Of a stretch of 64,000 nt of DNA, positions 527-64,000 are shown one piece after another. The notes below the pieces were generated by a model. It worked only from the letters and a program-made list of their open reading frames with translations. It made no database searches and was not told the origin of the DNA. Every line of letters begins with the position of its first letter. Positions within the stretch are counted from its first letter, which is position 1. Both the position numbers and the translations under genes were made by a program. The DNA comes from Owenia fusiformis (taxonomy: Eukaryota; Annelida; Polychaeta; Sabellida; Oweniidae), in NCBI GenBank assembly GCA_903813345.2, contig CAIIXF020000011.1:36490166-36554165 (forward strand), read 5' to 3'.

Positions 527-3500
527 GTAGTTCTCAAAATTCATAGAACCCTGTGACATAAGTATCCACTTTAAGAGAATTCAAGGACTCAAAATCATAG
601 AACTCTATGACATTTTAAGAGAACCCTGTGAGATTAGTACCTTTTATAAAACATGACATTAGTATCCATTTTAGAGAGAACCTTGTGAGGTTAGTATTCA
701 AAGTCATAGAACCATGTAAAATTAGTATTCAATGTCATAGAGGTTAGAACCCAAATCCTTGAAACTTTTGACAGACCTACCAACCTTTAATGAGATTTTT
801 AAAAATTGCACTACTTTTACTGGAGATTTTTCAAAAAAACAAGAGTTTTTTAAAAATGTGGTAGTTTTTGCGGAGAATGTCCATGTGCAGTATGGCAAGT
901 GATTTTAGACAGTCATATCTTTCACCATGAGTAGTAAATTATGAATAGGGATCCCATGTCAACAATTTTCTCAAAATGATGAACCTATTTGCTCAAAAGA
1001 GGATTTCCTCTTTCTGATTTTTATTGCATGAAAAGATTATTCAAAAAGGTGTCTAAAACTTCTTCAAAATTAGAATGGTATTGAAAGTCTATTTTTGAAG
1101 ATAGCAATTTTCGATGACCAAAATTATGCTGAAAGCAATGGATAGCACGAGCTTTCCCTATGGGAAAATAACATGGGATATGTGGTTTTTTACTTTAACA
1201 CATTTTAATACCAATTCGCTTTTCAGAAGTTGTTAATATAGTGTAGAAGAAACTTTTGATATGGTTAAATTGAGAAAAACAAGTTCCTCTTTTTAGAAAA
1301 TAAACCTAACATTTTATAAAAAGTGCCAAGGTGGGGTCCTGAACCATAATTTTTCAGAGAGTTGGATTGGTATTTTATCATCATAGGGACTTTACTTGAA
1401 AGAAAACATATTGTTTTAATAAAAACCACTGTATTTATGGCCAGATTTATACATTTTCCTAGTGCGAAATTGATGGTAAAAGAAGTTGTACTCAGATAAT
1501 ATCAAAGTCTTGTTAGATTCCTTTATATAAAATATTGTAGATTTCATGAAAAATATAGATTTCAGCAAAAATATGGATTTTACAAAAAAAATTAAGGAAG
1601 ATTTTGGTAGAAATATGTTACGAGAGTTAACGGGAGATGAAAATGGTGCGAGAGTTTTTTTTTAAAATTTTTTTACAGAGAAGCAAAAATTTTATGGAAG
1701 ATTCCTGTAAAAAACGGGAGGTTGACAGGTCTGTTTGACGTTTCTTTGTGTTTTGGGAGGGGGGCACTTCGTAAAACATTTATAACTATTCATTCATTTA
1801 TAAATCCCTTATGTATAAAGTTTGTCTACTTTGTCATCATTTGTCATGCAAAGGTGCAAAGAATTCTAGAATTGATTTACTTCTGTAAATCTGAAAACAT
1901 CTTTTTTACAGTTTGAACAAACCAAATTGAAGCAAGTTTCTGATAAGATTGTTGGCAAGAATGAATTGCGGAAAAGTTTAAGTCACTTGCTCTATTTGCA
2001 GAATCTTTCAAAGGTAAGGAATACTCATTAAGTCACTCATACCAATTCACAATTTATAATAAGCTCCTCCAGTATTGTTTTTTGCTCCCTAAAATCTTTC
2101 ATAAAAAATATAAATCCTGAAGATGACTGCATGAAAATTATGAAATGATTTAGTATTTTGCAATCACACAGATGGCAGACATGGAGATTTAGGGCTTCAT
2201 AGCAAAGTGTTCTCATCACATGGAAAATATGTAACAGTGTGAACAATACACATTCATGTACATGTATTAAAGGTAACAAATTCAGAACTAATATTATGCA
2301 TCAATGATTAACATTTGTTGTTATTTATTAATTCTAATGTGAAATGATTAAGTTTATCATTCTTACTTCAGAACCAGGGTCAGATGAAGGATAACTCAAA
2401 TCCAGAACTATGTCCAATTTGTCAGCTTCAACTTGGCAAAGAGGTAACAAATATTAATCACTTGGAAAGGAGGTAACAAACATGTGTCACTTTGCGAAGA
2501 GGTAAGATTTATTATATGAATCACATGCAAAGAGGTAACAAACATTTGTCACTTAGCAAAGAGGTAAGATATATTACATGAATCATTGGCAAAGAGGTAG
2601 CACACATTTGTCACTTAGCAAAGAGGTAGATATATTATATGAATCACTTCACAAAACGGTAACAAATATATGTCACTTACCAAAGAGGTAGGATATATTA
2701 TATGAATCACTTGGCAAAGAGGTAACAAACTTTTGTCACTTAGCAAAGAGGTAAGATATATTACATGAATCATTGGCAAAGAGGTAACACACATTTGTCA
2801 CTTAGCAAAGAGGTAAGATATATTACATGAATCATTGGCAAAGAGGTAACACACATTTGTCACTTAGCAAAGAGGTAAGATATATTACATGAATCATTGG
2901 CAAAGAGGTAACAAATATATGTCACTTATATTATATGAATCACTTGGCAAAGAGGTAACAAACATTTGTCACTTTGCGAAGAGGTAAGATATATTACATG
3001 AATCATTGGCAAAGAGGTAACACACATTTGTCACTTAGCAAAGAGGTAAGATATATTATATGAATCACTTGGCAAAGAGGTAACAAATATATGTCACTTA
3101 TATTATATGAATCACTTGGCAAAGAGGTAACACACATTTGTCACTTAGCAAAGAGGTAAGATATATTACATGAATCATTGGCAAAGAGGTAGCACACATT
3201 TGTCACTTAGCAAAGAGGTAGATATATTATATGAATCACTTCACAAAACGGTAACAAATATATGTCACTTACCAAAGAGGTAGGATATATTATATGAATC
3301 ACTTGGCAAAGAGGTAACAAACATTTGTCACTTAGCAAAGAGGTAAGACATATTATATGAATCACTTGGCAAAGAGGTAACAAACATTTGTCACTTAGCA
3401 AAGAGGTAAGGTATATTATATGAATCACTTCACAAAACGGTAACAAATATATGTCACCAAAGAGGTAGGATATATTATATGAATCACTTGGCAAAGAGGT

Positions 3501-9500: not shown

Positions 9501-10700
9501 TTTTATGATTTGTACTTTGAAACTCATAATTGGTCACCCAAATGCTTAAATGGAAATTCTGCTACATATCTCCAACATATATGCCTACAGATTCCTGAAT
9601 ATTTTGTTCATTGCGATTTGCTACATACTCCGTGGACTTGCCGATTTCTGGTTAGAATCTTTATACCTTAAATATTGATTTTTTATTTATAGTGGGTAGA
9701 TATTCTCACTGTGATAGGCCAGGCATTATCAGACAATGGAATCACCCATGTAGCATTACACGCTGGGAAGAAATCACAGGTTTGTTGGCATAAGTAGTTC
9801 CAGTTCAAGAAATAGGAGAATTTGTGCACTATATCTAGTATAAGTGTTATTTTTAAAGAAATAGTGTATGGCATTGAATATGTACATGTATACACATACA
9901 TACATGTATGTTATTTTATGTGCTTCATTTTCAGATCAATCTTAGTAGGTTTAAGGCAGAGAGTGGTGTAGATGTCTTACTATTGCCAATCCATTCTGGT
10001 GCTAATGGCCTCAACCTTATTGAAGCTACCCATGTTTTCTTAGTTGAACCCATACTTAACCCAGGTCAGGAACTGCAGGCCATTGGAAGGGTACATAGAA
10101 TAGGTCAGACCAGGTAATACAGGTTAAACCATCTAGCTAGGTAAACCCTCACAATACTACATTGTAACATACTTAACCCAGGTCAGGAACTGCAAGCCAT
10201 TGGAAGGGTACATAGAATAGGTCAGACCAGGTAACACATGTTAAACCATCTAGGTAAACCCTCACAAAACTACATTGTTACAAACTTCTGAATTAAGTCT
10301 TTTTACATCGAACTAGGTTTAAAGGTTTTTACAATTAACAGCACAATACAGTCTCTATTCTAGCATTTTGCTAGGTTTCTCTGTTAAGATAGCTCAAAAA
10401 GTCTTCTTAAGACTTTGCTTAGCAGGTCACCCCGGAAATATACTTAAGCAACAACAGTTTTACATCTCAACAATGATATCCTTTATTTTCAGGGCAACTA
10501 CAGTTCATAGATTCCTTGTCAGGGGTACCATAGAGGAGAAAATGCATGCTATGTTGAAGACTGTGTCTGCCCCAGTGAACACTAACAATGCTGAGGATAC
10601 TAACTTTACAATTGGTGATCTGTCTGAACTCTTCCAACCGGAGCCTGATAGAGACACTGAACCCGGTAATGGGAGTGAAGTTGAGGCTAGTTCTGTCTGA
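383..10700 (+). CDS. SHPRH: SHPRH, C-terminal part (nine exons, 5' end outside window)
   Basis: E3 ubiquitin ligase of the SNF2 family; in vertebrates SHPRH acts in the nucleus in PCNA poly-ubiquitination during DNA-damage tolerance. Nine exons join in frame to 360 residues plus stop: 383-526, 1912-2013, 2372-2443, 5108-5229, 5677-5752, 8441-8533, 9693-9779, 9935-10113, 10493-10700. All have AG/GT borders and matching phases. In local numbering a C3HC4 RING finger uses C96, C99, C112, H114, C117, C120, C139, C142. The helicase C domain follows, with motif IV (AKVLIFSTW), motif V ([13 protein letters not shown]) and motif VI ([12 protein letters not shown]). The order RING then helicase C is the SHPRH/RAD5-type arrangement, and the segments match SHPRH closely. 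The N-terminal SNF2, H1/H5 and PHD parts must lie upstream. Odd points: tandem arrays grow from at least two donors, and a 73-bp repeat truncates the C-terminus. Confidence 0.95.
530..760 (+). repeat. Degenerate short repeat after SHPRH exon a
   Basis: CATAGAACC followed by CTGTGACATTAGTATCC-like text recurs four to five times just inside the intron. It resembles the exon a end (ATCATAGAACCTGCAG). Old and diverged. Confidence 0.55.
771..1734. mobile_element. MITE with 3-bp target duplication TTG
   Basis: Terminal inverted repeats ACAGACCTACCAACCT and AGGTTGACAGGTCTGT, flanked by TTG at 768-770 and 1735-1737. It lies in a SHPRH intron. About 960 bp, without a transposase frame. The middle (1100-1180) shares GATGACCAAAAT and AAATAACATGGG with the elements near 13.5, 32.8 and 61.0 kb. 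Confidence 0.7.
1912..2013 (+). CDS. SHPRH: SHPRH exon b
   Basis: 34 codons, phase 0/0, acceptor TTTTTTACAG, donor AAG|GTAAGG. It encodes a helical stretch ([19 protein letters not shown] ending LQNLSK) leading to the RING finger. Confidence 0.9.
2372..2443 (+). CDS. SHPRH: SHPRH exon c (first half of RING finger)
   Basis: 24 codons, phase 0/0, acceptor TTACTTCAG, donor AAAGAG|GTAACA. It ends [15 protein letters not shown], so it carries the first zinc-ligand pair CPIC. Its last 12 bases plus the donor (TTGGCAAAGAGGTAAC) are the seed of the array that fills the next 1.9 kb of intron. Confidence 0.93.
2427..4375 (+). repeat. Minisatellite seeded by SHPRH exon c donor (63-bp dimer)
   Basis: About 30 copies of a 63-bp dimer: GGCAAAGAGGTAACAAAC..TTTGTCACTTA plus GCAAAGAGGTAAGATA..TATGAATCACTT. 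Both halves carry the AAAGAG|GTAA donor of the true exon end at 2443, which is unit one. Copies have point changes and occasional half-unit losses. Protein frames on the minus strand here are only repeat translations. Confidence 0.97.
4376..5107 (+). other. Rest of SHPRH intron, no feature
   Basis: AT-rich intron between the array and the RING exon. I see no gene, inverted ends or tandem structure. Confidence 0.6.
5108..5229 (+). CDS. SHPRH: SHPRH exon d (second half of RING finger)
   Basis: 40 codons plus two bases, acceptor TATTTGCAG, donor CCAG|GTATGG. It supplies the remaining zinc ligands in [11 protein letters not shown] and KCPMCRQF, completing a C3HC4 RING with exon c. Confidence 0.95.
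5677..5752 (+). CDS. SHPRH: SHPRH exon e
   Basis: 76 bases, phase 2 to 0; acceptor ATTGTAG, donor AAG|GTAACA. It encodes a weakly conserved spacer ([16 protein letters not shown]) between RING and helicase C. SHPRH has a similar I-x-YV segment here. Confidence 0.8.
6195..6936 (+). mobile_element. Internally deleted hAT element with 8-bp target duplication
   Basis: Ends TAGAGGTGTCAA and TTGACACTACTA are inverted repeats. The flanks carry the same 8 bases, CCCTGAGT (6187-6194 and 6937-6944), the hAT-size duplication. Subterminal TTAACCGGTTAACCG text is also inverted. Inside, 6582-6693 reads as a possible first coding exon ([15 protein letters not shown].., ending DKPVW) closed by donor TGTG|GTAAGT. 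That looks like the start of a BED-finger transposase, but the rest is missing, so the element is non-autonomous. Confidence 0.8.
7680..7862 (+). repeat. Interstitial telomere-like repeat
   Basis: Degenerate run of GGGTTA/TTAGGG with variants such as CTAGGGTTAGGGTT, inside a SHPRH intron. Consistent with the TTAGGG telomere of most animals; it is not a chromosome end because genes continue on both sides. Confidence 0.85.
8441..8533 (+). CDS. SHPRH: SHPRH exon f (helicase motif IV)
   Basis: 31 codons, phase 0/0; acceptor GATATTTCAG, donor ACA|GTAAGT. It encodes GDHSTKV followed by [10 protein letters not shown], the start of the helicase C domain. Confidence 0.93.
8534..9692 (+). other. SHPRH intron without recognised features
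   Basis: 1.16 kb of AT-rich intron. No convincing gene, repeat array or element ends seen. Confidence 0.5.
9693..9779 (+). CDS. SHPRH: SHPRH exon g
   Basis: 29 codons, phase 0/0; acceptor TTATTTATAG, donor CAG|GTTTGT. It begins [15 protein letters not shown], continuing motif IV, and ends GKKSQ. Confidence 0.92.
9935..10113 (+). CDS. SHPRH: SHPRH exon h (helicase motifs V and VI)
   Basis: 179 bases, phase 0 to 2; acceptor CATTTTCAG, donor CCAG|GTAATA. It contains [13 protein letters not shown] (motif V) and [12 protein letters not shown] (motif VI with the arginine fingers). The last 65 bases with their donor are duplicated in the intron 117 bases downstream. Confidence 0.96.
10049..10282 (+). 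repeat. 117-bp tandem duplication of SHPRH exon h end
   Basis: 10049-10165 and 10166-10282 match almost perfectly: 65 bases of exon h (CATACTTAACCCAGG.. to GGTCAGACCAG), its donor GTAATA or GTAACA, and the intron start. This leaves a second intact donor with RVHRIGQTR coding inside the intron but no acceptor in front of it. Confidence 0.93.
10493..10700 (+). CDS. SHPRH: SHPRH terminal exon, frame shortened by a repeat
   Basis: 68 complete codons and a stop (TGA 10698-10700), after acceptor TTTATTTTCAG. It encodes [19 protein letters not shown], typical of the SHPRH end, then an acidic tail. The tail falls in the first of seven 73-bp units. Because 73 is not a multiple of 3, the second unit is entered out of frame and the protein stops at EASSV. 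The sequence after the last unit (from 11131) would read SVDSNANNV then TAG in the original frame, which suggests the ancestral end of the protein. Confidence 0.9.
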
Positions 10701-11130
10701 ACTCTTCCAACCAGAGCCTGATAGAGACACTGAACCCAGTAATGGGAGTGAAGTTGAAGCTAGTTCTGTCTGAGCTGTTCCAACCGGAGCCTGATAGAGA
10801 CACTGAACACAGTAATGGGAGTGAAGTTGAGGCTAGTTCTGTCTGAACTCTTCCAACCAGAGCCTGATAGAGACACTGAACCCAGTAATGGGAATGAAGT
10901 TGAGGCTAGTTCTGTCTGAGCTGTTCCAACCAGAGCCTGATAGAGACACTGAACACAGTAATGGGAATGAAGTTGAGGCTAGTTCTGTCTGAGCTCTTCC
11001 AACCGGAGCCTGATAGAGACACTGAACACAGTAATGGGAGTGAAGTTGAGGCTAGTTCTGTCTGAGCTCTTCCAACCGGAGCCTGATAGAGACACTGAAC
11101 CCAGTAATGGGAGTGAAGTTGAAGCTAGTT
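10620..11130 (+). repeat. 73-bp tandem repeat x7 in SHPRH terminal exon
   Basis: Units start at 10620, 10693, 10766, 10839, 10912, 10985 and 11058, each CTGTCTGAACTCTTCCAACC.. to ..GAGGCTAGTT. Unit one is coding ([16 protein letters not shown]). Since 73 = 3n+1 the frame moves at each copy. Units differ by only a few bases, so the array is young. Confidence 0.97.
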
Positions 11131-11178
11131 CTGTTGACAGTAATGCCAATAATGTTTAGTAGATTACAAGAGGATGAA

Positions 11179-11184
11179 AATAAA
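11179..11184 (+). terminator. Proximal poly(A) signal AATAAA
   Basis: AATAAA 21 bases after the ancestral-looking SHPRH stop (TAG at 11156-11158). Confidence 0.45.
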
Positions 11185-38500: not shown

Positions 38501-41500
38501 ATGATGCAGAAATGCTAGAAAGCAATATCGCTAAAACACAAAAATGTTAAAAATGCTACATTGCTGACCACCTATCAAACTTACTCTCCGCCGTTGTTAA
38601 CTGTCCCACAAAAAGCCATAAAACGGGCTTAATCTGGCTGTGGTTGTGACACTCGATCACAAACAATCTTCGATACGCCCGTCTCATTCGCAGTTCGTTA
38701 AGGTCGCACAATGTCGTTGTGCACACGTACTGGAATTTTTGTGCATCCTCCTTTCACACACTACCCTATCACGTGACCACATTTAAAAAGGATACAGGGT
38801 ACAGTTAAGTTGCATATGCGGCGGGTATCCTCTATCTTTGTATATAAGGCTTTTCTGGTAATAATACGTTGCAAACTGCTCGATGAATCTAGACAATGTA
38901 TAGTAAAACATTTAGAATGTATGTAAAATCTAGTATACATTCAGAACTATGGAAATACACAAGCGTCCTCCATTTGCAACTTCGCTGTATCCTGTATTTC
39001 TTTTAAAGGAATACAGGATACAGTATGGGGGTATAGTAGTGTTTCTAAGTTCTGGAGACCTACCCGTTCGAGTACGTTTATGAAGTTTGTGGACACCAAA
39101 CAGTCCAGAACTTGCTTGTTGTGATAGAGGGGCTAAATGGAAAAATGCCAAATGTGATATTGCTAAAATGCAAAAATGCAAGGTTGATAAAATGCAAGAA
39201 TGATAAAAAATAAATACACAAAGTAAAGGCTACTTCTGTCTAAAAAGCTAAAGCTGAAGCGTGAATGCATTTTCTAATTTTTTTAAATACATGTACTTTC
39301 TAAAAACTTTTGGAACCATCATTATCAACTTCTTAATATGGCAGTTTAACAAACCCAAATCTCGATGGAAAATCAATTAAGTATACAGACATTAAATGAT
39401 TTTCATAGAATATTTCAAGATCACTTTTTATCTTGATGTGCCTTACAGTCAATCATAAGCTTATTCTGTTTTTAATTCTAACCAAACTGTCAGCTTCTCT
39501 TTTCATATTTGATTTGATTATTTCTGATTCCTCTCGCTGACTCTCTGTGTTATCGCAAATGATGGCAGAGTTGCTCATTGTTATGGGCGAGCTCCCATGC
39601 AGAGTTACTCATTGTTATGGGCGAGCTCCCATGCAGGAGTTCACATTCTCGGAAAAGACTAGTGCTAGTACTACCACCGGTGTGTGTTATGGGTTTATCT
39701 CTTGAATACACATCTATCTATTGATTGGCATTTCCTTTCTTTCCTATATAATCAGTATTGTTTGTGCAGCTTGCGTATTCAAATCGAATGCAAGATCACT
39801 CTTTGTTGTATATCAAATTGTTTGTCTATTTGTATTCCACCCCTTTGAATGAGCCATTGATGAATCCCGTGGTAATAATTAAGGGGATGGGCTCTGTCGG
39901 CTATCATGGCCATGTCGACATTAGATAATCTATATTTCGAAGACGACATTTTATGCATGTGATATACATGTTGTATATACGTACATTCCAATCCATAAGT
40001 TTGGCAACTGGAAATCCAAACATGCACAGGTTTTAATATGCCCACCATAATATCCCATGATGCATTCTAATATACTATCAATTTTATGTCACGTCAGTTA
40101 CATCTCAATTTGGTCGATATTCTCTTTTGATGTCAGAATTAAAGAGAAAATCAGATATAGCGAGCAAACAAAAAATTGTTTCAATTTTAGAATATTTTTG
40201 GCTCATGTCATTCCTTGTCATGTCTATTTTCTAAAAATCACAAAAGTGCATACTTTATTCCAGGAAAACTAAAGATTTTTACAATAAAGTATCATTTTTC
40301 TATAAGAATAGTTACCATTCTTATTGTTTGGGAGAATTTAAACATTTTCACTTATTTGTGCACTTTGAATAATTAATTACTTCACCAATTTATAACATAT
40401 TGTGAATCCTTTGGGAGATATTGTATTTGATATTGTAAGGAATAGATTGGTAGGTCAATTATACATGTTGCTTGTAATTTTGTTGATAGCTCAATTTTTT
40501 TAAATTCCTATAAATTAGACCAAGTGTATCATAAGCACGTTTTACAAAATATGAAAGAGATTGATTACATATTCTATGAAGAATTCGTAAATTCAAAAAT
40601 GCATGTCAAAAAGTCCAATATCGCAATATAGCATGTAAATATAGCATCTAAAGTTCAAATTTCAAATTGACCAATTTTTTTTCAAAATCATCTATAAGTT
40701 CTCAGAAGTTCAAATCTGACTTTAGATTTGAGATTCCACCTCCAATGACTTTCTCAGGGTCAAAAAAGGTCTTTTTACTACTTGCTTCAAATTGACCAAT
40801 TTATTTTTTCAAAATCATCTACAAGTTCTAAGAAATTAAAATCTGAAAAGATTAATCTCATAATATTGTAAGCAACAAGGTGGTGACATTTTGTCATGTT
40901 AACGCCTTGTTGTTTTATTGTTATCCGTTTCCAAAGTACGTTCATTCAGTTTTGAGGGATAAAAAGTACTTTTAAGTGTTAAGTAATGAGACTTTATTCA
41001 AAGTGAAAGGTTTGGGTGAAAGATGAATAGTAAAAAAGTAAGGGCAAAGGTTAGAGTCATAAATATATTTACAGTAACATGACTCTAACCTTTGCCCTTA
41101 CTTTCTTTACTATTCATCTTTCACCCAAACCTTTCATTTTGAGACACCCGATTGCTTGCATTGCAACCAGACATTATGACAATAACTTGCATTACAACGA
41201 GACATTATGGCAATTACTTGCATTACAACGAGACATTATGGCAATTGCTTGCATTACAACCAGACATTATGACAATAACTTGCATTACAATGAGACATTA
41301 TGGCAATTACTTGCATTACAACGAGACATTATGGCAATTGCTTGCATTACAACCAGACATTATGACAATAACTTGCATTACAACGAGACATTATGGCAAT
41401 TACTTGCATTACAACGAGACATTATGGCAATTACTTGCATTACAACGAGACATTATGGCAATTGCTTGCATTACAACCAGAAATTATGACAACAACTTGC

Positions 41501-44500
41501 ATTACAACCAGACATTATGACAATAACTTGCATAACAACGAGACATTATGGCAATTGATTACATTACAATGAGACATTATGACAATAACTTGCATAACAA
41601 CGACACATTATGGCAATTGGTTACATTGCAACCAGCCATTATGGCAATTACTTGCATTACAACGAGACATTATGGCAATTGCTTGCATTACAACCAGACA
41701 TTATGACAATTGCTTGCATTACAACCATACATTATGACAATAACTTGCATAACAACGAGACATTATTGCAATTGATTACATTACAACTAGACATTATGAC
41801 AATAACTTGCATTACAACGAGACCTCATGCAATTGATTACATTACAACCAGACATTATGACAATAACTTGCATAACAACGAGACATTATGACAATAACTT
41901 GAATAACAACGAGACATTATGGCAATTTCTTGCATCACAACCAGACATTATGGCACTTGATTACATTACAACCAGACATTATGGCAATTTCTTGCGTCAT
42001 AACCAGCCATTATGGCACTTGATGACATTACAACCAGACATTATGACAATTGCTTGCATTACAACCATACATTATGACAATAACTTGCATTACAACCAGA
42101 CATTATGACAATAACTTGCATAACAACGAGACATTATTGCAATTGATTACATTACAACTAGACATTATGACAATAACTTGCATTACAACGAGACATTATG
42201 ACAATAACTTGAATAACAACCAGACATTATGGCAATTGATTACATTACAACCAGACATTATGACAATTACTTGCATTACAACGAGACATTATGGCAATTA
42301 CTTGCATTACAACGAGACATTATGGCAATTGCTTGCATTACAACCAGACATTATGACAATTGCTTGCATTACAACCAGACATTATGACAATAACTTGAAT
42401 AACAACGAGACATTATGGCAATTGATTACATTACAACCAGCCATTATGGCAATTTCTTGCATCACAACCAGACATTATGGCACTTGATTACATTACAACC
42501 AGACATTATGGCAATTACTTGCATAACAACGAGACATTATGGCAATTGATTACATTACAACCAGCCATTATCGCAATTTCTTGCGTCATAACCAGCCATT
42601 ATGGCACTTGATGACATTACAACCAGACATTATGGCAATTGATGACATTACAACCAGACATTATGACAATAACTTGCATAACAACGAGACATTATGGCAC
42701 TTAATGACATTACAACCAGCCATTATCGCAATAACTTGCATTACAACCCGACACTTGATGACATTACAACCAGACATTATGGCGATTTCTTGCATCACAA
42801 CCAGATATTATGGCACTTGATGACATTACAACCAGACATTATGGCAATTACTTGCATAACAACGAGACATTATGGCAATTGATTACATTACAACCAGACA
42901 TTATGGCAATTACTTGCATAACAACGAGACATTATGGCAATTGATTACATTACAACCAGCCATTATCGCAATTTCTTGCGTCATAACCAGCCATTATGGC
43001 ACTTGATGACATTACAACCAGACATTATGGCAATTGATGACATTACAACCAGACATTATGACAATAACTTGCATAACAACGAGACATTATGGCACTTAAT
43101 GACATTACAACCAGCCATTATCGCAATAACTTGCATTACAACACGACACTTGATGACATTACAACCAGACATTATGGCGATTTCTTGCATCACAACCAGA
43201 TATTATGGCACTTGATGACATTACAACCAGACATTTTGGCAATTGATCGCATTACAATTATAGATTATGACAATTGATTGCATGCAACCACCAATTATGG
43301 CAATTGCAAAACAACCAGACATTATTTCAATTGCTTCCAGGTGGAGCTAAATCCTCATAATTTGAAACAAGCTCAGTTCCGGGTGATGCCAAGGTACAAA
43401 GTCAAAGCTGAGGGAGATATCGTAAGTACATCATCTTGTATAGTTTAGTCTAATAGCGCCTCTAATAGCAATTAAACAATATAGTATATAGTCATGGTAT
43501 ATATAATAATCGTTTTGTACTGTATGGTATGATAGTTTATGAGGTATGCTATGTAAGTTTTATGTGGTGTAAGTTTTATTTTGAAATACCACTGTAATGG
43601 CAGCAAGGATTCAACAGTTGGTGATGTGGCCAATCCAACGTCTTGGCTGCTGAATTGCTGTGGTTAAGATTGCACATTTGAGTTTGTAATGGCCTTCAAC
43701 AAATAGAAAATGCACTTTTTGGTTCAGATTTAGCCTTCTGAGCATCAGCATCAAATGTGTGAAGTAGAAAACTTGGCTGATAAAGGTTAGGGCATAATGA
43801 TGATACTGAGTCGTACTGGTTTGAGGATGTTAATGGACAATCGTTTACTGTGAACATGGACTGATACATTGTAGTTATAAGAAAACAATTCATTGTGACA
43901 TTAGCGCGGAAGCGAGGGATTGTCATGGATACTGTTATCCATCGGAAAGATGAAGCAGCATCGTAGTGCTCAGATGCTTCACTTGATTGGTTCTTAAACC
44001 TCCTTCATGAATTATCTGAAGACAGACTAGTCTCTAATTGTATGGATCACAACTGAGCTGCACATTCTCAAGACATATCCCATATATGTTTTAGTGTAGG
44101 GATACTTTAGAGGCAGGATCTATACACACAATCCCCGAACTACTGATGATCAAAATAATATTAAAACAGCTGAGATCGGGATAGTTCCTGATGACAACAT
44201 GGACAGGGACATTACAATGTGTTTGAGGAGCTTGGATTGAGAACATTACAAACATTGATCTGTGCTCACATTATAGTGGTATATGATGATAAAACGTAGA
44301 CAACACAAAACTTACATGTCTCTGGGACAGGTCTATGAAAAAAGTTAGAAATCTTCCTATCATTAGAAAATTGTACGCAATCAACAGTGTGGATGACTTT
44401 TTGGACCACCCTGTATACGTTCAGAACTAAGGAAAATATCGTGCAAGTTCAGATTGAAGGGAGTTAGTTTCTAAGTAATTTACAGATAACATATTTCGAC

Positions 44501-47500
44501 ATTTGTCTAATTGTAACTACTTCGTCTATTTTAACTGACTTGTCTTATTGTAAATGCCTTGCTTATTTTCAACTGCCTTGTCTAATTGTTACTGCCTTGT
44601 CTAATTGTTACTACTTCGTCTATTTTCAACTGCCTTGCTTATTTTTAACTGCCTTGTCTAATTGTTACTGCCCTGTCTAATTGTAACTATTTCGTCTATT
44701 TTAACTGGTTTGTCTTATTGTAACTGCCTCGTCTATTTTAATGACTTCAGTGAATGAAATGTCCCTTGGTCTTCTGGTCTTGGATTGTGATATTGGTTCT
44801 GGAATGGTGGGGGAAAGGGGGTATTAGACATTGTTTTTTCACGTTAGATCATTGTTTTGGGCTATATGGGATTTGTTTTTCTTGACTGGTATGCACTTAG
44901 AGTTTGTTTTTTCTTGCCAAGTTCCATTACAACTTTTGGTCCTTTCTCTTTGGCGCTAGTGTTTATATATTTAACTGGCTTGTCTTATTGTTTAACTACC
45001 TCGTCTATTTTGAACTGACCTGTCTAAGTGTAACTGCCTTTTTTGTTTTAGCTGCCGTATCTAATTGTAACTGCTTTGCCTGTATTTAACTGCTTTCTCT
45101 ATTTGTAGGTACAAGTAGCGGACCAAGTAGTCCTGGAAAGTGTAAAGTCCCCAGGCCAATTCCTTCACGTTAGCAAATCACAATTTGGTGTGCAATCTGT
45201 TTATGCGAACGAGTAAGTTTTTCATTTAAACGCTCTCATATCAATTTGTTAACTGGAAGTCTTCATTTGATAGCCTATTTAAGCCTATTCCATATTAGCC
45301 TATTTAAGCCTATTCCATATTAGCCTATTTAAGCCTATTCCATATTACAATAGTTCGTAAATCCATACAAAAAATTAATGATATTTGAATCGCCAAACAC
45401 GCGATGTAGAAGATTTTCCGTTCCGTTATGAAGGAGGGGGGGGGGTGTACCACGATATCCTAGTGAATGGAGTGTATTCCAAATGTTCAAATACAACGTC
45501 TCCTTCCGAAATTTTCACTGCCTGTTTATACACAGTGTAATACTGCATTTCATCAAGTCATTTTGTACGTTGATTTAAATATATACTTTTTTCAGACACG
45601 AGTTGAATCTATCTGTACGTCAAAGTGGTTTCTCCTGTTATCGAAGAGACAAACCTACGTCAGATCACGAGAACAAACTAAAGGTATGCAAATTGCTATA
45701 TCGGCATAGTTTGGCTTGAGTCTCAACCTTATATATTCAACGTATTTAAGTGTCATAGCTCGTACAAGTTAGGCCAGATGTCATCCATGTCCAATCTAAT
45801 TGGATATTTCAGCCAATGGTACATGTATACAATGAAAACTTGTTTAACACCCCAGTCACATTTGCTACGGCCGCCGTGCGGTCTATGATTTCTGTACGTT
45901 TGCAGTCACTTTTCCTACGGCAACCGCACGGCGAATTTTGTTCATATGAAAAACGAGGTTGCCGTGCGGCCTTTTAAATGGTGAACCACGGTCGCCGCAC
46001 GGAGGGAGTAGTTTTTTCCTGATACAAAAGCAGATGCAACGTGGCCCTGCGGCAAATGTACGTTCACCATACACTTCAGCTGTACAAACGTTAATGCCTA
46101 GTTTTATTTAATCTACATTATACATTGTAAGTACAATTTATAAATGTTATTTATAGTGCTAGGATATAGTATCAAAATAAAAAGTGTTGAGTGACCAAGA
46201 ACCAAGACCCCGAGTAACTTAAGGAAATCTGGTCACAACTAAATGACACTACACGATGGTAACGCTTATTAGAGGAAAGGAAGAACAAAAGGATACCATT
46301 CCCAATGAATCGGATGATTGAGAGGAAAATGATTTGTCTGCAATTCAGAAGATTGCAGAATTTTACGAGGCCCATTCATACCTGTCTGACCTCAGTCATG
46401 AGAAATACTGCAATATCAAAAACGAAAGACTGTTAATTTGAATTTTAGACCTACCAGATGTTTGGAAATCAAGGATTTTCTTATACATCTCTTGTTCCAT
46501 TCAAAGCAAAAGAAAAATGCCTTTCTGTTGGTACACAACTCTGGTATAGAGGGCGCTTCTCACAGCTGGGGACATTTTATCATATGCTTTTTATCATATA
46601 CTCCCTAGCAGTGATAGTCTTCAACATATTCCGAGACACTGCATGGGCATTCAGCTCTTAATGGAACAAGTTTGACAATTGTGATTGGGGTGTTAGCATT
46701 CTGCATCTGACCATATGATTGGTTGTTATTGACCATATATCTTTTGGAATCTGATTGGTTGATAACGACCATATGTCTTACGGCGTCAGATTGGTTGTTA
46801 TTGACCATATGTCTTGTGGAATCTGATTGGTTGATAATGACCATATGTCTTAAGGCGTCAGATTGGTTTTTATGGTTTTTATTGGTTTTACCATGTGCCT
46901 CACGTCAAGCGTGCATTTAAACCTTCTACTGCAACTACATGTATACGACGGTTTATAGATGAATGTCTTTAAAATTAAGAAGAATAAAAAATTACGATTT
47001 TAAAGACATTTTCGATATTTTATGAATATGACATATCGAACCATTGTTTTCTAGGCAGGAGTGCCTATACGCCTATATCATAAGGAAGTGGAGGCTTACA
47101 TGGTCGCAGAGGGGTTATTCGGTGAAGATCTCATGGAAGATGGTAAGTAATTAGACTACCTTGTCCCGGGAAAGCATCCAGTGTGCACTGTCAAGGAGGA
47201 TTGTATCCCAAGCTTCCAACTTGATATTCTACCATATTTGGAGTCGTGATTTCAAAATTCGAATTCAAACAACCGCCATTTTTTTTACTTCAGAATTCGA
47301 ATCGCAATTTTTGGTCCTATTTCCATACAAGAATACAAAAACACATAGGAGGTGATCGAGATATTTGTTGGACCGTTGATTATGAATTATAGTCACTTAA
47401 ATTTTCAGAAAATAACGACATTCTGATCTGACATTTTCATTGTTTGAAAATATCGAATTGCGTCCCTGTAAGCCAATCCTCCTTGTAGCATTACATAAGT

Positions 47501-50500
47501 ATTAATATTCTCAAGATGGATGCTTTGGAACATATGCCTTAATACTTGTATATCCCATGTTGAATTATGGATTGCTATAAAGACTTTTAGACTGTTAAGT
47601 GCCTGATTACACTACTATCACACCAAACTAGTTCTCACTACGTTCTCGAAAACGGGCTTTAACTGTGTACGAACGGACTGGACGTACTTAGAACCGTTTG
47701 GGGTCTATTTACAAACTTCATCGAACGTACTCGTACGGGTAGGTCCTCTTGAACTTAGAACATGCTCAAAATGTTCTCTTGGTCGTCACGTTCTACAATT
47801 AGATTTAGAACGAGTGACAACCTACTAAAGACGAGCTGGACGTGCTATGAACGGAACCGTCGTACTTCAATCCTACTTGGGACGTTTTTACCACGAGTTG
47901 AACTGTCCAAGGACGTATTTAGAACGAGGTAGAACTAATTGCAAACGGGTTAAACCGATTAAGAAGGTATCTATCAACGAGTTAGCAAAAATATAGCTAT
48001 CACACCAAGCAAGTTGCCACTGCGTTCTTCAAAACTGTTTTTAAACTGTGTGCGAACAGAATGAACGTAGCTACAACGTTTTACCAACTTCATGGTCTTT
48101 CCCGGATGGGGAATGTGATTTAGAATTTTGAATCGATTCAAAATTCGATGGCGACCATACCGTTCTGTAATCAGGTCATGATGACCTTCTAGACTAAGGG
48201 ACGCGTTATACGACGTTGCACACCGACATGGGGCGACCTGAACGAACTGCGAATGAGATGGACGTATTGAAGACTGTTTATGAACGAAGTAGCTAATTAT
48301 TTTAGACATATTTCCCGACCACAGCCAGATTGACCCCGTTTTACGACGTTTTCGTAGAACTGGGAAGAACGGATAAGAACTAGTTTGGTGTGATAAGGGG
48401 GGGGGGGGGGGGTGGGGGGTTTAAATATACGTCATATTGCATAGCAGTGTTTACCAAGCTAGTTCTCAACCGTTCTTTCCAGTCGTATAAAAAGTCTAAA
48501 TCTGACTGTGCTCGGGAAATATGTCTAAAATAATTAACTTCTCTAAAACACCTCCAGTCTAGTAGGTATGTTGTCACACGATCTAATGATAAAACGGTTA
48601 AGTCGCCATCGAATTTCCGAATGATTCAAAATTCTAAATCACCTTCCAACCGGGCACGTCCATGGAATTCGTAAATATACCGAATATAGAAAGTTGCAGC
48701 TACGTTTATTCCGTTAGCATTCAATTTAAAACCAGTTTGAAACGTTTTCAAGAACGCAATGACAACTAGTTTGTGTAATAGCCAAACTTTGCTAACTCGT
48801 TCATAAGCAATCTTAAATACGTCCTTAAATTCGCTTGCAATTAGTTCTACCTCGTTCTCAATACGTCCTCAACTCGTTCAAAAAACGTCCCTAGTAGGAT
48901 GGATGTGCGACAGTTCCATTCGTAGAACTGTACGTACAACTCGTCTTAAATACGCTGATTGGAGTAGTAACTAGTTGCAGAATGTGGCGACCATCAGAAC
49001 GACTTGAGCATACTCTTAAGTTATGGAGGACTTCGATCCCCGTTCGTTCACGATGTTTGTAAATAGATCCCCAAACGACTTTTAGTACGTCTAGTACGTT
49101 CGTATACATTTTGAACCCGTTTTCGGGAACTAGAGAGAACTAGTTTGGTGTGATAGTAGGGCTACGTGTCAGAATATATCTGCTATAATGTACGTTTTTT
49201 TTCAGTACACCTACGTGTTAGAGCTCTCGATCAGAACAATCCAAAAACACTTTTCCCTTCAAGTTCTGCACTCACCTATTGGGAAATTGAATTTGAAGGC
49301 GGGGGAATCGATGGTAAGCGTATTGCTTGATTAATTATACTGTTATATACGAGTTATACACGAATTGTATTTGAATGTATATATCTTAAGGAGTGTTATA
49401 AAATGGGAGCTATACATATTATGTGTCCTCTACTTTAGGCCAGTGAATGAACACGAGTTGTATGCGAATGTATATATCTTAAGGGGTGTTATAAAATGGG
49501 AGCTATACATGTTATGTGTCCTCTACTTAGGCCAGTGAATGAACACGAGTTGTATGCGAATGTATATATCTTAAGGGGTGTTATAAAATGGGAGCTATAC
49601 ATGTTATGTGTCCTCTACTTAGGCCAGTGAATGAACACGAGTTGTATGCGAATGTATATATCTTAAGGGGTGTTATAAAATGGGAGCTATACATGTTATG
49701 TGTCCTCTATTTTAGGCCAGTGAATGAACACGAGTTGTATGCGAATGTATATATCTTAAGGGGTGTTATAAAATGGGAGCTATACATGTTATATGTCCTC
49801 TATTTTAGGCCAGTAAATGAACACGAGTTGTATGCGAATGTATATATCTTAAGGGGTGTTATAAAATGGGAGCTATACATATTATGTGCCCTCTACTTAG
49901 GCCAGTGAATGAACACGAGTTGTATGTGAATGTATATATCTTAAGGGGTGTTATAAAATGGGAGCTATACATATTATGTGTCCTCTACTTTAGGCCATTG
50001 AATGAACACGAGTTGTATGTGAATGTATATATCTTAAGGAGTGTTATAAAATGGGAGCTACACATATTATGTGTCCTCTACTTTAGGCCAGTGAATGAAC
50101 ACGAGTTGTATGTGAATGTATATATCTTAAGGGGTGTTATAAAATGGGAGCTATTCATATGATGTGTCCTCTACTTTAGGCCAGTGAATGAACACGAGTT
50201 GTATGTGAATGTATATATCTTAAGGAGTGTTATAAAATGGGAGCTATACATATTATGTGTCCTCTACTCTAGGCCAGTGAATGAACACGAGTTGTATATG
50301 AATGTATATCTTAAGGAGTGTTATAAAATGGGAGCTATACATATTATGTGTCCTCTACTTTAGGCCAGTGAATGAACACGAGTTGTATGTGAATGTATAT
50401 ATCTTAAGGAGTGTTATAAAATGGGAGCTATTCATATGATGTGTCCTCTACTTTAGGCCAGTGAATGAACACGAGTTGTATTTGAATGTATATATCTTAA

Positions 50501-53500
50501 GGAGTGTTATAAAATGGGAGCTATACATATTATGTGTCCTCTACTTTAGGCCAGTGAATGAACACGAGTTGTATGTGAATGTATATATCTTAAGGCGTGT
50601 TATAAAATGGGAGCTATACATATTATGTGTCCTCTACTTTAGGCCAGTGAATGAACACGAGTTGTATGTGAATGTATATATCTTAAGGAGTGTTATAAAA
50701 TGGGAGCTATTCATATGATGTGTCCTCTACTTTAGGCCAGTGAATGAACACGAGTTGTATTTGAATGTATATATCTTAAGGAGTGTTATAAAATGGGAGC
50801 TATACATATTATGTGTCCTCTACTTTAGGCCAGTGAATGAACACGAGTTGTATGTTAATGTATATATCTTAAGGCGTGTTATAAAATGGGAGCTATAGAT
50901 ATTATTAGTCCTCTACTTTAGGCCAGTGAATGAACACGAGTTGTATGTGAATGTATATATCTTAAGGAGTGTTATAAAATGGGAGCTATACATATTATGT
51001 GTCCTCTACTTTAGGCCAGTGAATGAACATGAGTTGTATGCGAATGTATATATTTTAAGGGGTGTTATAAAATGGGAGCTATACATATTATGTGTCCTCT
51101 ACGTTAGGCCAGTGAATGAACACGAGTTGTATGCGAATGTATATATCTTAAGGAGTGATATAAAATGGGAGCTATACATATTATGTGTCCTCTACTTTAG
51201 GCCATTGAATGAACACGAGTTGTATGTGAATGTATATATCTTAATGGGTGTTATAAAGTGGGAGCTATTCATATGATGTGTCCTCTACTTTAGGCCAGTG
51301 AATGAACACGAGTTGTATGTGAATGTATATATCTTAAGGGGTGTTATAAAATGGGAGCTATTCATATGATGTGTCCTCTACTTTAGGCCAGTGAATGAAC
51401 ACGAGTTGTATTTGAATGTATATATCTTAAGGAGTGTTATAAAATGGGAGCTATTCATATGATGTGTCCTCTACTTAAGGCCAGTGAATGAACACGAGTT
51501 GTATTTGAATGTATATATCTTAAGGAGTGTTATAAAATGGGAGCTATTCATATGATGTGTCCTCTACTTAAGGCCAGTGAATGAACACGAGTTGTATGTG
51601 AATGTGTATGTAAATGAGATATACCCTTCCGAGTTAGATTTAAAAAAGACAAATGAATCGAACATGAATGCGCCTTATCTTGACCTTCTCATTAACATTG
51701 AACAAGACAACAATATATATTGTAAGTTGTATGATAAACGAGATGATTTCAACTTTGATATTGTGAATTTTCCCGATTTAGACAGTAATATTCCATTAAA
51801 TCCAGCATATGGGGTCTATGTATCCCAGCTTATTAGATATGGCAGGGCATGCTCTAAATATTTAGATTTTAAGTCAAGACACAATACTTTAGTGATCAAA
51901 CTGTTAAGTCAAGGTTATAATGCTATAAAGCTTAGGAAATTCTTTCTGGGCTTTGCTGAAAAATACAAATCATTAATTTCGAAGTTTCAAGTTTTTCCAC
52001 TTGAGATGCTGAAGGATGTGGGATTGTTTAAGACATTGGCAATGAACTCACAATATTTTCACTTGGCACCTTTTGAGGTGGATCCCGGCTATGGCATTAC
52101 TGGTTGAGAAATAGGGATCGAAACCAGCCATAGTTTTCTCCTGATGACCATTGTGAATTATTGTGTTTTATGGATTATGGCGACGGCTTTCGTGAATGGA
52201 TGTTGACCCTTTGAAACACCTATGGACTTGGAGACTGGATTTGATCTGTCCCACATCATTTGAGACTGAATGCTCTATCTTGTATGAGTACTTGTATCTA
52301 CAACTATTTTTGAGGTTATGAGTATTGGCTATCAATTGGCTATCAATTTCTAATTTTTTCTTCAACATGTATTGTAATGACTTCAGTATGAATGAAATGT
52401 CCCTTGGTCTTCTGGTCTTGGATTGTGATATTAGTTCTTGAATGGTGGGGGGAAAGGGGGTATTAGACATTATTTCTTTTCACGTTAGATCATGGTTTTG
52501 GGCTATATGGGGTTTGTTTTTCTTGAATGGTATGCACTTAAGTTTGCTTTTTCTTGTTAAGTTCCATTACAACTTTTGGTCCTTTCCCTTTGGCACTTGT
52601 ACTTATATATCTAAAGGGGTGTTATAAAATGGGAGCTATTCATATGATGTGTCCTCTACTTTAGGCCAGTGAATGAACACGAGTTGTATGTGAATGTATA
52701 TATCTTAATGGGTGTTATAAAATGGGAGCTATTCATATGATGTGTCCTCTACTTTAGGCCAGTGAATGAACACGAGTTGTATGTGAATGTATATATCTTA
52801 ATGGGTGTTATAAAATGGGAGCTATTCATATGATGTGTCCTCTACTTTAGGCCAGTGAATGAACACGAGTTGTATGTGAATGTATATATCTTAATGGGTG
52901 TTATAAAATGGGAGCTATTCATATGATGTGTCCTCTACTTTAGGCCAGTGAATGAACACGAGTTGTATGTGAATGTATATATCTTAATGGGTGTTATAAA
53001 ATGGGAGCTATTCATATGATGTGTCCTCTACTTTAGGCCAGTGAATGAACACGAGTTGTATGTGAATGTATATATCTTAATGGGTGTTATAAAATGGGAG
53101 CTATTCATATGATGTGTCCTCTACTTTAGGCCAGTGAATGAACACGAGTTGTATGTGAATGTATATATCTTAATGGGTGTTATAAAATGGGAGCTATTCA
53201 TATGATGTGTCCTCTACTTTAGGCCAGTGAATGAACACGAGTTGTATTTGAATGTATATATCTGAAGGGGTGTTATAAAATGGGAGCTATTCATATGATG
53301 TGTCCTCTACTTTAGGCCAGTGAATGAACACGAGTTGTATTTGAATGTATATATCTGAAGGGGTGTTATAAAATGGGAGCTATTCATATGATGTGTCCTC
53401 TACTTTAGGCCAGTGAATGAACACGAGTTGTATTTGAATGTATATATCTGAAGGGGTGTTATAAAATGGGAGCTATTCATATGATGTGTCCTCTACTTTA

Positions 53501-56500
53501 GGCCAGTGAATGAACACGAGTTGTATTTGAATGTATATATTTGAAGGGGTGTTATATAATGGGAGCTATCCTCTACTTTACGCCAATTTTACCTAGTTTA
53601 TCATGTGAACGTTTCTATATATAGGGGGTGTCATAAAGTGGGAACAACAGGTTAGGATAAGACATATGTGTACAAGAAAGTGGTTGAAGGTAAACAAGTC
53701 AGCTGTGACATTAACAGAGAGTCACGATGATCCGTCCACTGTCTTCAAACTACATCCTGTCATAAAGGTAAGCTGTTCTCAAATGCATATTATCTCATTT
53801 ATTATCATGTTCAGGTTCTTTTTATTGGGACTCTAAATTACTAGAAAAAGCTATGTAATGTTTTGGGTGATATCAAAATACAGAGGTAGCCTTATTGGGT
53901 GCTATTCATGCATCCTGGCTTTTCTTTTCTCATTTCGTTCAGTGTGTCATGCGATGATTTTTGATCGATGCAATTCCCACCAGTGTATTACTTTGCTAAC
54001 CTCTAAAGATATTTAACAACTGATGTCGACAGTCCTCGGCTTCGGTAACAAATACAAGGAAGAGCTTTTAACGATGCTATTAATTAAGGTAATGGTTTGA
54101 TGCTTTTAACTATTTCAGGAGGGCGACGAGATCATGTACGAGACATACTGCAGAATAGAGCACGCTGTCACCGGGACGTGGCTTCATGCCTTACATGGTA
54201 GATTCGATTTTACTGAAAACTGAAATTATTTCCGATATCGAATAAAATACAGGGTGTCAAATAAATATGTTCTCCCCCTTACTTTAATGAAAAGATAATA
54301 TCCCAAATGTTATAGGCCAAATTAAACTTGTTCAGGTATTGGAGTACCCCAAAAAAGTCTAAATAGTGAATTAAACTATACAAAAGTAATACCTGTCGCA
54401 AAATGAGAAATTTGATTATACAATTTGCTTCATTTGATAACATTCTTGGTCGTAACAAATTCACATGTACTGAATATTTAGAATTCAGTATAGTCAGTTG
54501 TTATACCCTCGTTGTTCCTGATGATTCAGTTATTGACAGGGTCCGATGGGACTATGCATGCCAGAAAAAACTATTATTAAAATAGCTTGCAAATGAAATA
54601 TGAAAAATGGCATTGTTTGTCCAAAAATGGTGGGAAAGGAATTTTGAAACACCGGATTAAAGTCAAATCATGTCCCGCGTATTTGAACAACAGAACCCAT
54701 ACTGTATTGTATTGATTTGCAGTGAAACCTAAAATGGTCTTCAAAAGGAGAAGCTGTAATTTAAATCAATAGAAATTGAACTGCTTCTTGACAGTGAGCG
54801 CACAAACATTATAAGCATGCATGAAGGCTCTCAACACAACAGCTATAAAGATCATGAAATGTTGATTTTTTGGGGAATGACCCCAAGCTCAATGGAGCCA
54901 GGCATTGGAAGACTGTTCTAGGAGATCAGGTAGATGTCCTACTAGAAAGAGAACTCGAATAAACTCATTATTCCAAAGAAATCCTCCCGAAATGTATTGA
55001 GAAGACTCTTTCATGCTCGACAAATACAATAGAACTGTTGAAATATTCTGAAAACAAATACTGCAGGATTTGCCGTCATAAATGCGGTAGATGATGGTCC
55101 AAAAAATTATTTACAACTGCATACTCTCAAAGAAAACATATTTAAACTTGTAAAAACAATTAAAAATAATATATTTATTTGACACCCTGTAGAAAATGCA
55201 AAATTAGCGATATATGTTATTTGTTATGCACAATGACCAAATGCCGATTTGCAATTTGCCGTTAGACCACTTATCTAAATATGTGCAAAATCTTCATTTC
55301 TAATTTCTAGATGAATATGGACGCACTCAGGTCTTTGATGACAATGACACTTCGATGGCTGGTTTAAAGTGGACCCACGCCCCATTGAAGAAGGTGAATA
55401 TGATAGTCTAGTGATCCAATAAATTAACAGCATTTCGCTATACTTTTGTAATTTGACACATGATAGAAGAAACAACTATTTTTATACTAAGGAATGGATG
55501 TTATTTTGTTTATTCCAGTCAGTCAACCGGCTGTTCCATCCACTTTTTCAGGTTTTATCATGTTTGACAGTCAAGTGACTTTTCCATCCACTTTTTCAAG
55601 TTTTATCATGTTTGACAGTCAAGTGACTTTTCCATCCACTATTTCAAGTTTTATCATGTTTGACAGTCAAGTGACTTTTCCATCCACTTTTTCAAGTTTT
55701 ATCATGTTTGACAGTCAAGTGACTTTTCCATCCACTATTTCTAGTTTTATCATGTTTGACAGTCAAGTGACTTTTCCATCCACTTTTTCAAGTTTCATCA
55801 TGTTTGACAGTCAAGTGACTTTTCCATCCACTTTTTCAAGTTTTATCATGTTTGACAGTCAAGTGACTTTTCCATCCACTATTTCAAGTTTTATCATGTT
55901 TGACAGTCAAGTGACTTTTCCATCCACTATTTCAAGTTTTATCATGTTTGACAGTCAAGTGACTTTTCCATCCACTTTTTCAAGTTTTATCATGTTTGAC
56001 AGTCAAGTGACTTTCCAATCCACTATTTCAAGTTTTATCATGTTTGACAGTCAAGTGACTTTTCCATCCACTTTTTCAAGTTTTATCATGTTTGACAGTC
56101 AAGTGACTTTCCAATCCACTATTTCAAGTTTTATCATGTTTGACAGTCAAGTGACTTTTCCATCCACTTTTTCAAGTTTTATCATGTTTGACAGTCAAGT
56201 GACTTTTCCATCCACTTTTTCAAGTTTTATCATGTTTGACAGTCAAGTGACTTTTCCATCCACTTTTTCAAGTTTTATCATGTTTGACAGTCAAGTGACT
56301 TTTCCATCCACTTTTTCAAGTTTTATCATGTTTGACAGTCAAGTGACTTTCCAATCCACTATTTCAAGTTTTATCATGCTTGACAGTCAAGTGACTTTTC
56401 CATCCACTTTTTCAAGTTTTATCATGTTTGATAGTCAAGTGACTTTTCCATCCACTTTTTCAAGTTTTATCATGTTTGACAGTCAAGTGACTTTTCCATC

Positions 56501-59500
56501 CACTTTTTCAAGTTTTATCATGTTTGACAGTCAAGTGACTTTTCCATCCACTATTTCTAGTTTTATCATGTTTGGCAGTCAAGTGACTTTTCCATCCACT
56601 TTTTCAAGTTTCATCATGTTTGACAGTCAAGTGACTTTTCCATCCACTTTTTCAAGTTTTATCATGTTTGACAGTCAAGTGACTTTTCCATCCACTATTT
56701 CAAGTTTTATCATGTTTGACAGTCAAGTGACTTTTCCATCCACTATTTCAAGTTTTATCATGTTTGACAGTCAAGTGACTTTTCCATCCACTTTTTCAAG
56801 TTTTATCATGTTTGACAGTCAAGTGACTTTCCAATCCACTATTTCAAGCTTTATCATGTTTGACAGTCAAGTGACTTTTCCATCCACTTTTTCAAGTTTT
56901 ATCATGTTTGACAGTCAAGTGACTTTCCAATCCACTATTTCAAGTTTTATCATGTTTGACAGTCAAGTGACCTTTCCCTCCACTTTTTCAAGTTTTATCA
57001 TGTTTGACAGTACAGTGACTTTTCCATCCACTATTTCAAGTTTTATCATGTTTGACAGTCAAGTGACTTTTCCATCCACTATTTCTAGTTTTATCATGTT
57101 TGACAGTCAAGTGACTTTTCCATCCACTGTTTCTAGTTTTATCATGTTTGACAGTCAAGTGACTTTTCCATCCACTTTTTCTAGTTTTATCATGTTTGAC
57201 AGTCAAGTGACTTTTCCATCCACTATTTCAAGTTTTATCATGTTTGACAGTCAAGTGACTTTTCCATCCACTATTTCAAGGTTTATCATGTTTGACAGTC
57301 AAGTGACTTTTCCATCCACTATTTCAAGTTTTATCATGCTTGACAGTCAAGTGACTTTTTCATCCACCTTTTCCAGTTATGTTATCTTGAACAGTCAAGT
57401 TACCATTACGTCCACTTTTCCATTTATATTAACTTAAGCACTTAAGTGACCATGTCATACACTATTTTCAGTTGACCCTTAGCGAGGAGATGCAGTATGA
57501 TGATGCGTTTACAATACAATACGTAGAGCAGGATCTCGTGGAAATATTCAACTTCATGGCTGGCATGGTGCCTTTTATACAAAAACTCATAAAAGACGTG
57601 AGTAATATCTTCTCTCAGCTTTCTTTATGGAAATTTAAATATAGTCATTTTTATCACTTTTCTACATGAACTTAAAACATGTGAGTTATATATATTCTAT
57701 CAATTTGCGATTGCCTTCTATACTTAAACTCATCGAGTCATCAACTTACTTTTTGTGCAGAAACTTACAAAACAGGATTCACATCGCTTGGCCTTTCAAA
57801 CAAAACCTATAAAATGCTAGTATACAAAACACCCCTGGCAAGTGCTCTTATCCATGGCACTAATCCCTGTGGATTTCTAATGAATGACTCATTCCGTGGT
57901 AACACATGGCCTTGGATTAAATGTCTTTTACTGGTGAAAAAGGTTATTACGAATCGCACAGATCTATTCAGTTCGTTTACAACTAAAATACGGTACCAGA
58001 CAAGTTAAATTGGTTGCAGTAATCGAGGCTTCAAAACGTTTTGACAATATTTCCATTTTCTACGTTTTGGCGAATGTAAACCTAGGGGTTACTTCGCTAA
58101 GACTTTTTAATATCACGCGCCGATCTGAAACGATCATATATCATATTCCCTAGTAATGTAAACAAACCCAGTTCATCGGAATAGATCACTTACAAGGGGT
58201 GTTATAGGAATCGCAATTAGACGATAGATTGTTCATTTTCCCATATTTGTTGTTTTTATTTAATTGTTCTCAGATGAAGGACAGAAAGAACCAGGTAAAT
58301 ATTAGCACTCGTGAAGCACGAAATATCCGAATTTGAATCAATAAGTGTTTTATGAATGACAAAGTATTAAGGAGCTCGTAATTTACAATCACAATCAATA
58401 GCACTTTGACTATTAATTTTTCCTGTAAAGCATTTATGTAATATTTTTTGTTTATATAACACTTTTCAGAAATACTGAAATATCATTGATTTCATAAATA
58501 GAAACAGAATAAAAAACACGTTCTTTGATGGGCATAATGCATTTCTTAAATCCATTCATTTGAATTGAAAAAGAAACATAGCCGAAAATCGAGAAGAGAC
58601 GTAAGCATTTAAATAAAAATAATGACTGTATGCTCACTATTAGAGGTTCATTATAAATTTTTATATCTTAGAATTGAAATGCATATATATGATCAGTCTA
58701 TTGACTATTTAGAGGTGATTCTATTGAAGTTACCATTAGCTTTCATTACAGTAATAGAGTCCATTTTGAATTTTCTCTTTTTACTTAATGCATGTTTACG
58801 TCGGCCAAAATGCTCAGGTACTATAAAACCTTATAAATGCGTCAGTTATAATGACACAGCTTTTAGTATAAGCTTTCAGCCTACTCCTTTCGTGTTCTGG
58901 TGATGTACATTTTATATTTGTAGCGATAAGATTGAGATCAGTAAGATCTCATCAACCTAATGCTAGTATCGTCCCCATCACAATTTATTTTTTATTTTTT
59001 TATTATTAGTTTATTGCAATCACTTTGATATAGTTAAACTAGTGCAGGAGTTACAAATTTACAACACATGTGTACAAGCACAATTCTAAAGCAGAGCTAA
59101 AAACATTTGCAACATAAGACATAAAAACAAAACTAAAACATTTGTAATACAAAATATAACCTTGTTCTTGACCCAAGATAGCATAGGCCGCATCCCCAAG
59201 CACCCATTCTAAACCATTATTGGGAATACATGTCTTAAAATAATTATAAATGTGTGGTAGCCTATTCTCAATACTGTTATAAAATATATACTTCCTCTTC
59301 AAAAATTGGGCGAGTAAAAAATCGATGTTTACAGCTCATATTACAAAAAGAACACATTCCATCACTTATACCCCATCTCTCAAAACCAATGGTCAGACCA
59401 AAGCATCCTGATCTGGCCTTGGATTTAAGTTTTTGAGCATAGAAGTCAAAATCAGTTTTAGGTATTTTTTCCATAAGTGTGTTTCTTTTAATATAATATT

Positions 59501-64000: not shown

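Follow-up and report, generated by a model that had tools for sequence, protein, structure and literature searches.

The question raised by this stretch of the Owenia fusiformis genome is why minisatellites repeatedly sit on the junctions between exons and introns, and whether such junctions are favoured over other positions. Within the window, by which we mean the whole 64-kb stretch of DNA that was analysed (coordinates count from its first base), the TRF listing has 66 rows. The original prediction named nine arrays that begin or end on a splice site and carry that site in their units. All nine arrays exist, eight of them as TRF rows and the array at 10113 as a two-copy duplication outside the TRF listing; however, the junction together with exon sequence is carried in only six, namely at the donors 2443, 10113, and 27391, at the acceptors 25282 and 53625, and in the array at 63811 (table 1).

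Table 1. Arrays at exon borders in the window and the exon preceding the first of them
Feature	Position	Strand	Details
RING part, exon of the presumed SHPRH-like gene	2372..2443	+	real donor after 2443; RING match when read into next exon
Donor-type array	2431..4378	+	two donors in every 63-bp unit; 60 additional donor copies; 13 bp inside exon
Two-copy duplication across donor after 10113	10051..10280	+	117-bp offset; halves 10051–10165 and 10168–10278, 93% identical; 63 bp of exon in copy
73-bp array across stop codon of last exon	10619..11134	+	7.1 copies (TRF)
Acceptor-type array	24676..25313	+	77-bp unit; real acceptor is last copy, exon start 25282
Donor-type array	27369..29377	+	41-bp unit; first copy holds real donor (after 27391), followed by 49 more
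31-bp array	41151..43340	+	TRF to 43305, similarity to intron end; abuts acceptor 43341, not across
Degenerate 19–20-bp array	44503..45108	+	split by repeated element; abuts acceptor 45109, not across
93-bp array	49358..53660	+	two blocks parted by inserted element; at acceptor 53625
48-bp array	55520..57472	+	acceptor AG (57470–57471) covered; ends at exon
108-bp acceptor-type array	63738..64542	+	runs past window end (64000); real exon start 64459

The gene at the left of the window, which we take to be SHPRH-like, encodes RING and Helicase_C domains, and its best solved relative is RAD5 (E 1.5e-15). From 25.3 kb onward the gene is IP3-receptor-like (PDB 5xa0, E 1.5e-28) and encodes MIR and Ins145_P3_rec domains. 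The proposed rule that the first unit is the real site for donors and the last unit the real site for acceptors agrees with this homology, as the IP3-receptor exons align in order on PDB 5xa0 and, at donor 10113, the exon runs gap-free into the next exon against RAD5. The alignment to the IP3 receptor additionally suggests a further exon, within 29400–43340, between the exons at 27391 and 43341.

The junctions differ in how far the arrays reach. The region at 10113 is single copy in a genome-wide search. At 53625 the array resembles the last intron bases and the first 19 exon bases. At 57472 the first 30 exon bases are unlike the array (P 0.91). At 43341 and 45109 array similarity reaches within 1–2 bases of the exon; none of the copies can be aligned over the junction, and the exon bears no resemblance to the array (P 0.43 and 0.54, respectively). 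Position 63811, taken in the original prediction for a real acceptor, proved to be an inner copy; the last copy, which is continuous with the remaining exon, is the one that starts the exon.

Several other repeated sequences were seen in the window. The segments 44734–44974 and 52370–52614 are one sequence (91% identical) inside two different minisatellite arrays, and the latter copy is preceded by an unbroken open frame at about 51.6–52.1 kb that has no Pfam match. Another repeated sequence is present at 61709–61954 and 63451–63695 (84% identical); its second copy parts a lone diverged IP3-receptor exon start (63407–63453) from the main 108-bp array. Degenerate GTTAGG-like telomere-type repeats occupy 7686–7862, a non-coding stretch of the left gene.

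To avoid the bias of the window, we assembled a sample in which exons were picked with the Pfam profiles of myosin, kinesin, and Cpn60 and not by arrays. The three families gave 92, 144, and 60 profile matches (296 in all), of which 72, 109, and 38 (219 in all) were taken into the sample. Matches with E above 1e-5 were excluded, as were four matches whose contig is unplaced. A cluster of 12 matches to a repeated myosin exon was omitted entirely, and a kinesin exon repeated 18 times was represented by a single copy. Removed by hand were 11 further myosin or kinesin rows, mostly long or with several stops, and two long Cpn60 matches. The filter was passed by 215 of the 219, resulting in 139 regions with 258,193 bases, all of which were analysed. 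Kinases were added by picking 50 exon-like matches by eye from 144, of which 47 passed, and drawing 20 random regions. Arrays were found by TRF and self-BLAST and make up 8.7% of the bases in the 139 regions; junctions were placed from profile ends and simple splice-site scores, not from transcripts. Region L082, which holds a kinesin array, was kept in the analyses of coverage, phase, and unit length and left out of the final counts, the count of array edges, and the later collapsed tests described below. Of the 466 exon ends remaining, 393 passed the limits on splice-site score and distance.

A minisatellite spans 20 of these 393 scored junctions (5.1%), 13 of 204 acceptors and 7 of 189 donors, so that junction-anchored arrays are also present in the genome outside the window. 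The spanned junctions fall in 17 of 86 genes and, because arrays cluster in genes, junctions are not independent; in the kinase subset 2 of 34 are spanned, both on one exon. That kinase exon (L154, G000:C5:68771-70427) has a minisatellite at each end, and the two differ (86 bp at the acceptor, 71 bp at the donor). Two exon clusters were also noted among the sampled families. At G000:C2:23266359-23269174, part of which lies in L082, a kinesin exon is repeated together with its acceptor at a spacing of 159 bp (18 matches); the copies read in L082 have a stop after the exon part, and the last copy should be the true exon. At G000:C9:37986009-37994334 there are twelve tandem matches of a myosin-head exon (about 18–84 of the profile), which may represent either a large exon array or exons used in a mutually exclusive manner.

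In the sample, the position of the junction within the unit is even (KS P 0.35, 18 arrays). All but one of these 18 arrays overlap the exon by less than one unit, and the unit length is divisible by three in 6 of 18, as by chance. Spanning units are long (32–363 bp), whereas those of other arrays are mostly 16–60 bp.

Most copies retain a splice signal. The dinucleotide is intact in 59 of 60 donor copies at 2443 and 41 of 49 at 27391, and in one of three aligned places at 10113, that one being the true second copy; among acceptor copies it is intact in 7/7 at 25282, 6/6 at 63811/64459, and 36/38 at 57472, the exception being 53625, where the copies are without AG (0/22). Overall, 150 of 185 copies in the window are intact (138 expected), which is about level with the neighbouring bases. 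The copies frequently match the splice score of the real site, both in the sample and in the window, and at 2443 some outscore the real donor (7.3 vs. 2.5). Use of the nearest decoy would lead to a stop or a frameshift in 16 of 18 arrays, and we conclude that the copies behave as intron; because only 2 of the 18 keep an open frame, splicing presumably uses the exon-proximal copy, as homology and reading frame indicate. The 108-bp unit at the right end of the window comprises 36 codons and has an open frame in the window, so that splicing to an inner acceptor would lengthen the receptor by in-frame repeats.

Whether junctions are favoured depends on how arrays are counted. When all arrays are considered, they cover 8–10% of intronic sequence at distances of 50–600 bp; the value is 5.5% at the junction itself and 3% at 31–60 bp inside the exon, and this raw coverage has no peak at the junction. 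Raw coverage confounds array length with array birth. We, therefore, collapsed arrays to one unit, treating each as its founding unit, and calculated the expectation as unit length times the array density in the nearby intron. The first collapsed tests, which gave about 2- to 5-fold excess, were rejected because long arrays cut by region ends had not been fully allowed for. Correction for this cutting resulted in 18 observed versus 12.3 expected (units of at least 15 bp, P 0.031) or 11.1 expected (at least 25 bp, P 0.007). A conditional test gave, for all identities, 20 spanning arrays versus 13.2 expected (at least 15 bp, P 0.017) or 11.9 expected (at least 25 bp, P 0.0028), and, for units of at least 40 bp, 18 versus 11.1 (P 0.0066); the settings of all the collapsed tests were explored after the data had been seen and not fixed beforehand. 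A gene bootstrap of the ratio of spanning to non-spanning density gave 2.4–4.9 in 20 of 24 settings, each with limits above 1. In the other four, which are those admitting units up to 400 bp together with a match below 85%, the ratio is 1.2–1.6 and the limits include 1. Another gene-level bootstrap with three settings gave 1.13 and 1.28 for any identity (not significant) and 3.68 for a match of at least 85%. When all four families are combined, this match is reached by 19 of the 20 arrays that span a junction and by 44 of the 61 that do not; a difference in age between the two classes was not established at 90% match (13/18 vs. 14/28, P 0.22).

Arrays that do not span a junction show a similar tendency. 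In the first three families, 12 of 58 edges of non-spanning arrays within 600 bp lie at 0–50 bp from the junction, compared with 4–6 in each 50-bp interval between 50 and 350 bp, in a count where one array can count from two junctions. As these arrays also start near junctions, exon edges rather than the splice site are indicated. The excess is clearly above chance relative to arrays confined to introns and moderate relative to tolerated random placement. The idea that a local process favours splice junctions thus survives in part: the excess is about threefold with collapsed arrays in 20 of 24 settings, but raw coverage is without excess. Together, these analyses provide moderate evidence that exon edges are a hot spot for tandem duplication that is not tied to the splice site.

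The closest competitor to a hot spot is tolerance on its own, in which duplications arise evenly along genes, those that spare the protein survive, and the pile-up of array ends is an effect of truncation. The flat coverage of introns with its lower value at the junction is what tolerance would give, as is the even junction phase, and the long spanning units agree with the length-biased sampling that it predicts. The 73-bp array at 10619–11134, which includes the stop codon of the terminal exon, has the anatomy of a junction array at a coding/3'UTR border instead of a splice site, again as tolerance predicts, and the ratios come near 1 in some settings. However, the collapsed spanning count is above expectation in most settings, and the starts of non-spanning arrays are more frequent in the 50 bp next to junctions; we regard tolerance without a hot spot as rather unlikely, although it deserves serious consideration. 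Much less probable is that selection retains the junction copies as spare sites or decoys that aid splicing. The dinucleotide is indeed among the best-conserved pairs in three of the ten arrays examined (2443, L033, and L120), but the other seven have no special conservation of decoy sites (at 25282 this test aligned 14 places, of which only 7 are true copies), AG is lost in 22 of 22 copies at 53625, and arrays without the splice site are in excess as well.

Two further explanations concern the origin of the sequences themselves. The birth of an intron from a duplicated AG|GT segment, which had been offered as one reading of these arrays, is a documented mechanism (PMC3443670), and we consider it very improbable here. 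The even phase places junctions away from unit borders and argues against AG|GT-bounded duplication, and AG|GT was not found at segment borders so as to supply both intron ends: in all six window introns with a placeable opposite end, that end bears no resemblance to the array (P 0.1 to 0.9). Moreover, as a raw count, 10 of 19 spanned junctions share their intron position with a different region of the family to which they belong. Least probable of all is a family of mobile elements that carry splice sites, in the manner of introners. That many loci are affected would suit such a family; on the other hand, the units differ between loci in both sequence and length, in accordance with the claim that they are unrelated. 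Genome-wide searches with two of them, which may miss common repeats, placed all matches at the locus of origin (33/33 for the 93-bp unit and 5/5 for the 77-bp unit) rather than at many introns.

The explanation that we favour as the best, and hold to be probable, is that these are minisatellites of the mirage type discussed below, generated by straddling duplication, tolerance, and growth toward the intron, together with an approximately threefold excess at exon edges. The founding event would be a local tandem duplication, of about 30 to 360 bp in the cases observed, that chances to straddle an exon edge. Of the resulting splice sites, the exon-proximal one would stay in use, probably through exon definition, and as long as it does the duplication should be tolerated, because the extra copies would be intronic and invisible to the protein. 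Spare copies may then expand and homogenise like those of any minisatellite, into the intron only, since growth into the exon would alter the protein; growth in this direction would leave the real donor as the first unit and the real acceptor as the last. Besides tolerance, exon edges seem to generate or retain tandem duplications at roughly three times the frequency of the nearby intron, for which the evidence is moderate, and the breakpoint is probably not the splice site itself. We suggest, tentatively and with somewhat less than even confidence, that this lineage has roughly threefold hot spots at exon edges, not tied to AG/GT, which steadily supply duplicated junctions, so that its splicing machinery picks the exon-proximal site among up to ~60 near-identical ones.

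These arrays offer numerous natural experiments on how one splice site is selected from a series of identical copies, and if the excess at exon edges holds, they provide a way to approach the question of why the borders of exons slip or break in replication or transcription. They are also a warning for annotation because junction arrays multiply exon fragments.

Mirages, the original description of which is reportedly that of Canestro et al. in 2002, are the nearest known counterpart. In the amphioxus Adh3 and globin genes, tandem repeats with units of 10 to ~160 bp lie across exon-intron boundaries, are unstable in length, and, as the results suggest, permit normal splicing (PMC3087553); further mirages are described in amphioxus troponin C and PGBD5 in a second report (PMC3902484). 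The Owenia arrays fit the mirage features examined: their units span the exon-intron boundary, donor or acceptor, at six junctions of the window and 20 of 393 in the sample, differ in length from locus to locus, and contain many AG/GT copies while the authentic site is kept, as in the amphioxus cases. They differ in belonging to an annelid genome, in the larger number of cases, in having up to ~60 site copies and units up to 363 bp, and in coming with an estimate of frequency. A literature search, in which subscription papers were mostly outside the range, found no account of such splice-junction arrays in an annelid. What is new is thus the annelid genome, the frequency of about 1 exon edge in 20 in our sample, and the moderate evidence for a hot spot, whereas the kind of array is already known from amphioxus; this suggests that a curiosity from a handful of amphioxus genes is apparently frequent in another animal genome.

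Two other systems share single features with the Owenia arrays. In human segmental duplications, internal tandem repeats lie at exon-intron boundaries (PMC2812944) and, like the arrays described here, they are minisatellites that affect gene structure; however, the human repeats differ from one recent paralogue to another and alter transcripts or create novel introns, whereas the Owenia arrays lie in conserved genes and the exon is kept. Intron gain by tandem genomic duplication, in which a new intron arises from an AGGT-bearing exon segment (PMC3443670), likewise involves tandem duplication near splice sites, but in contrast to that process, the Owenia arrays lie within introns whose other end, where tested, is unrelated.
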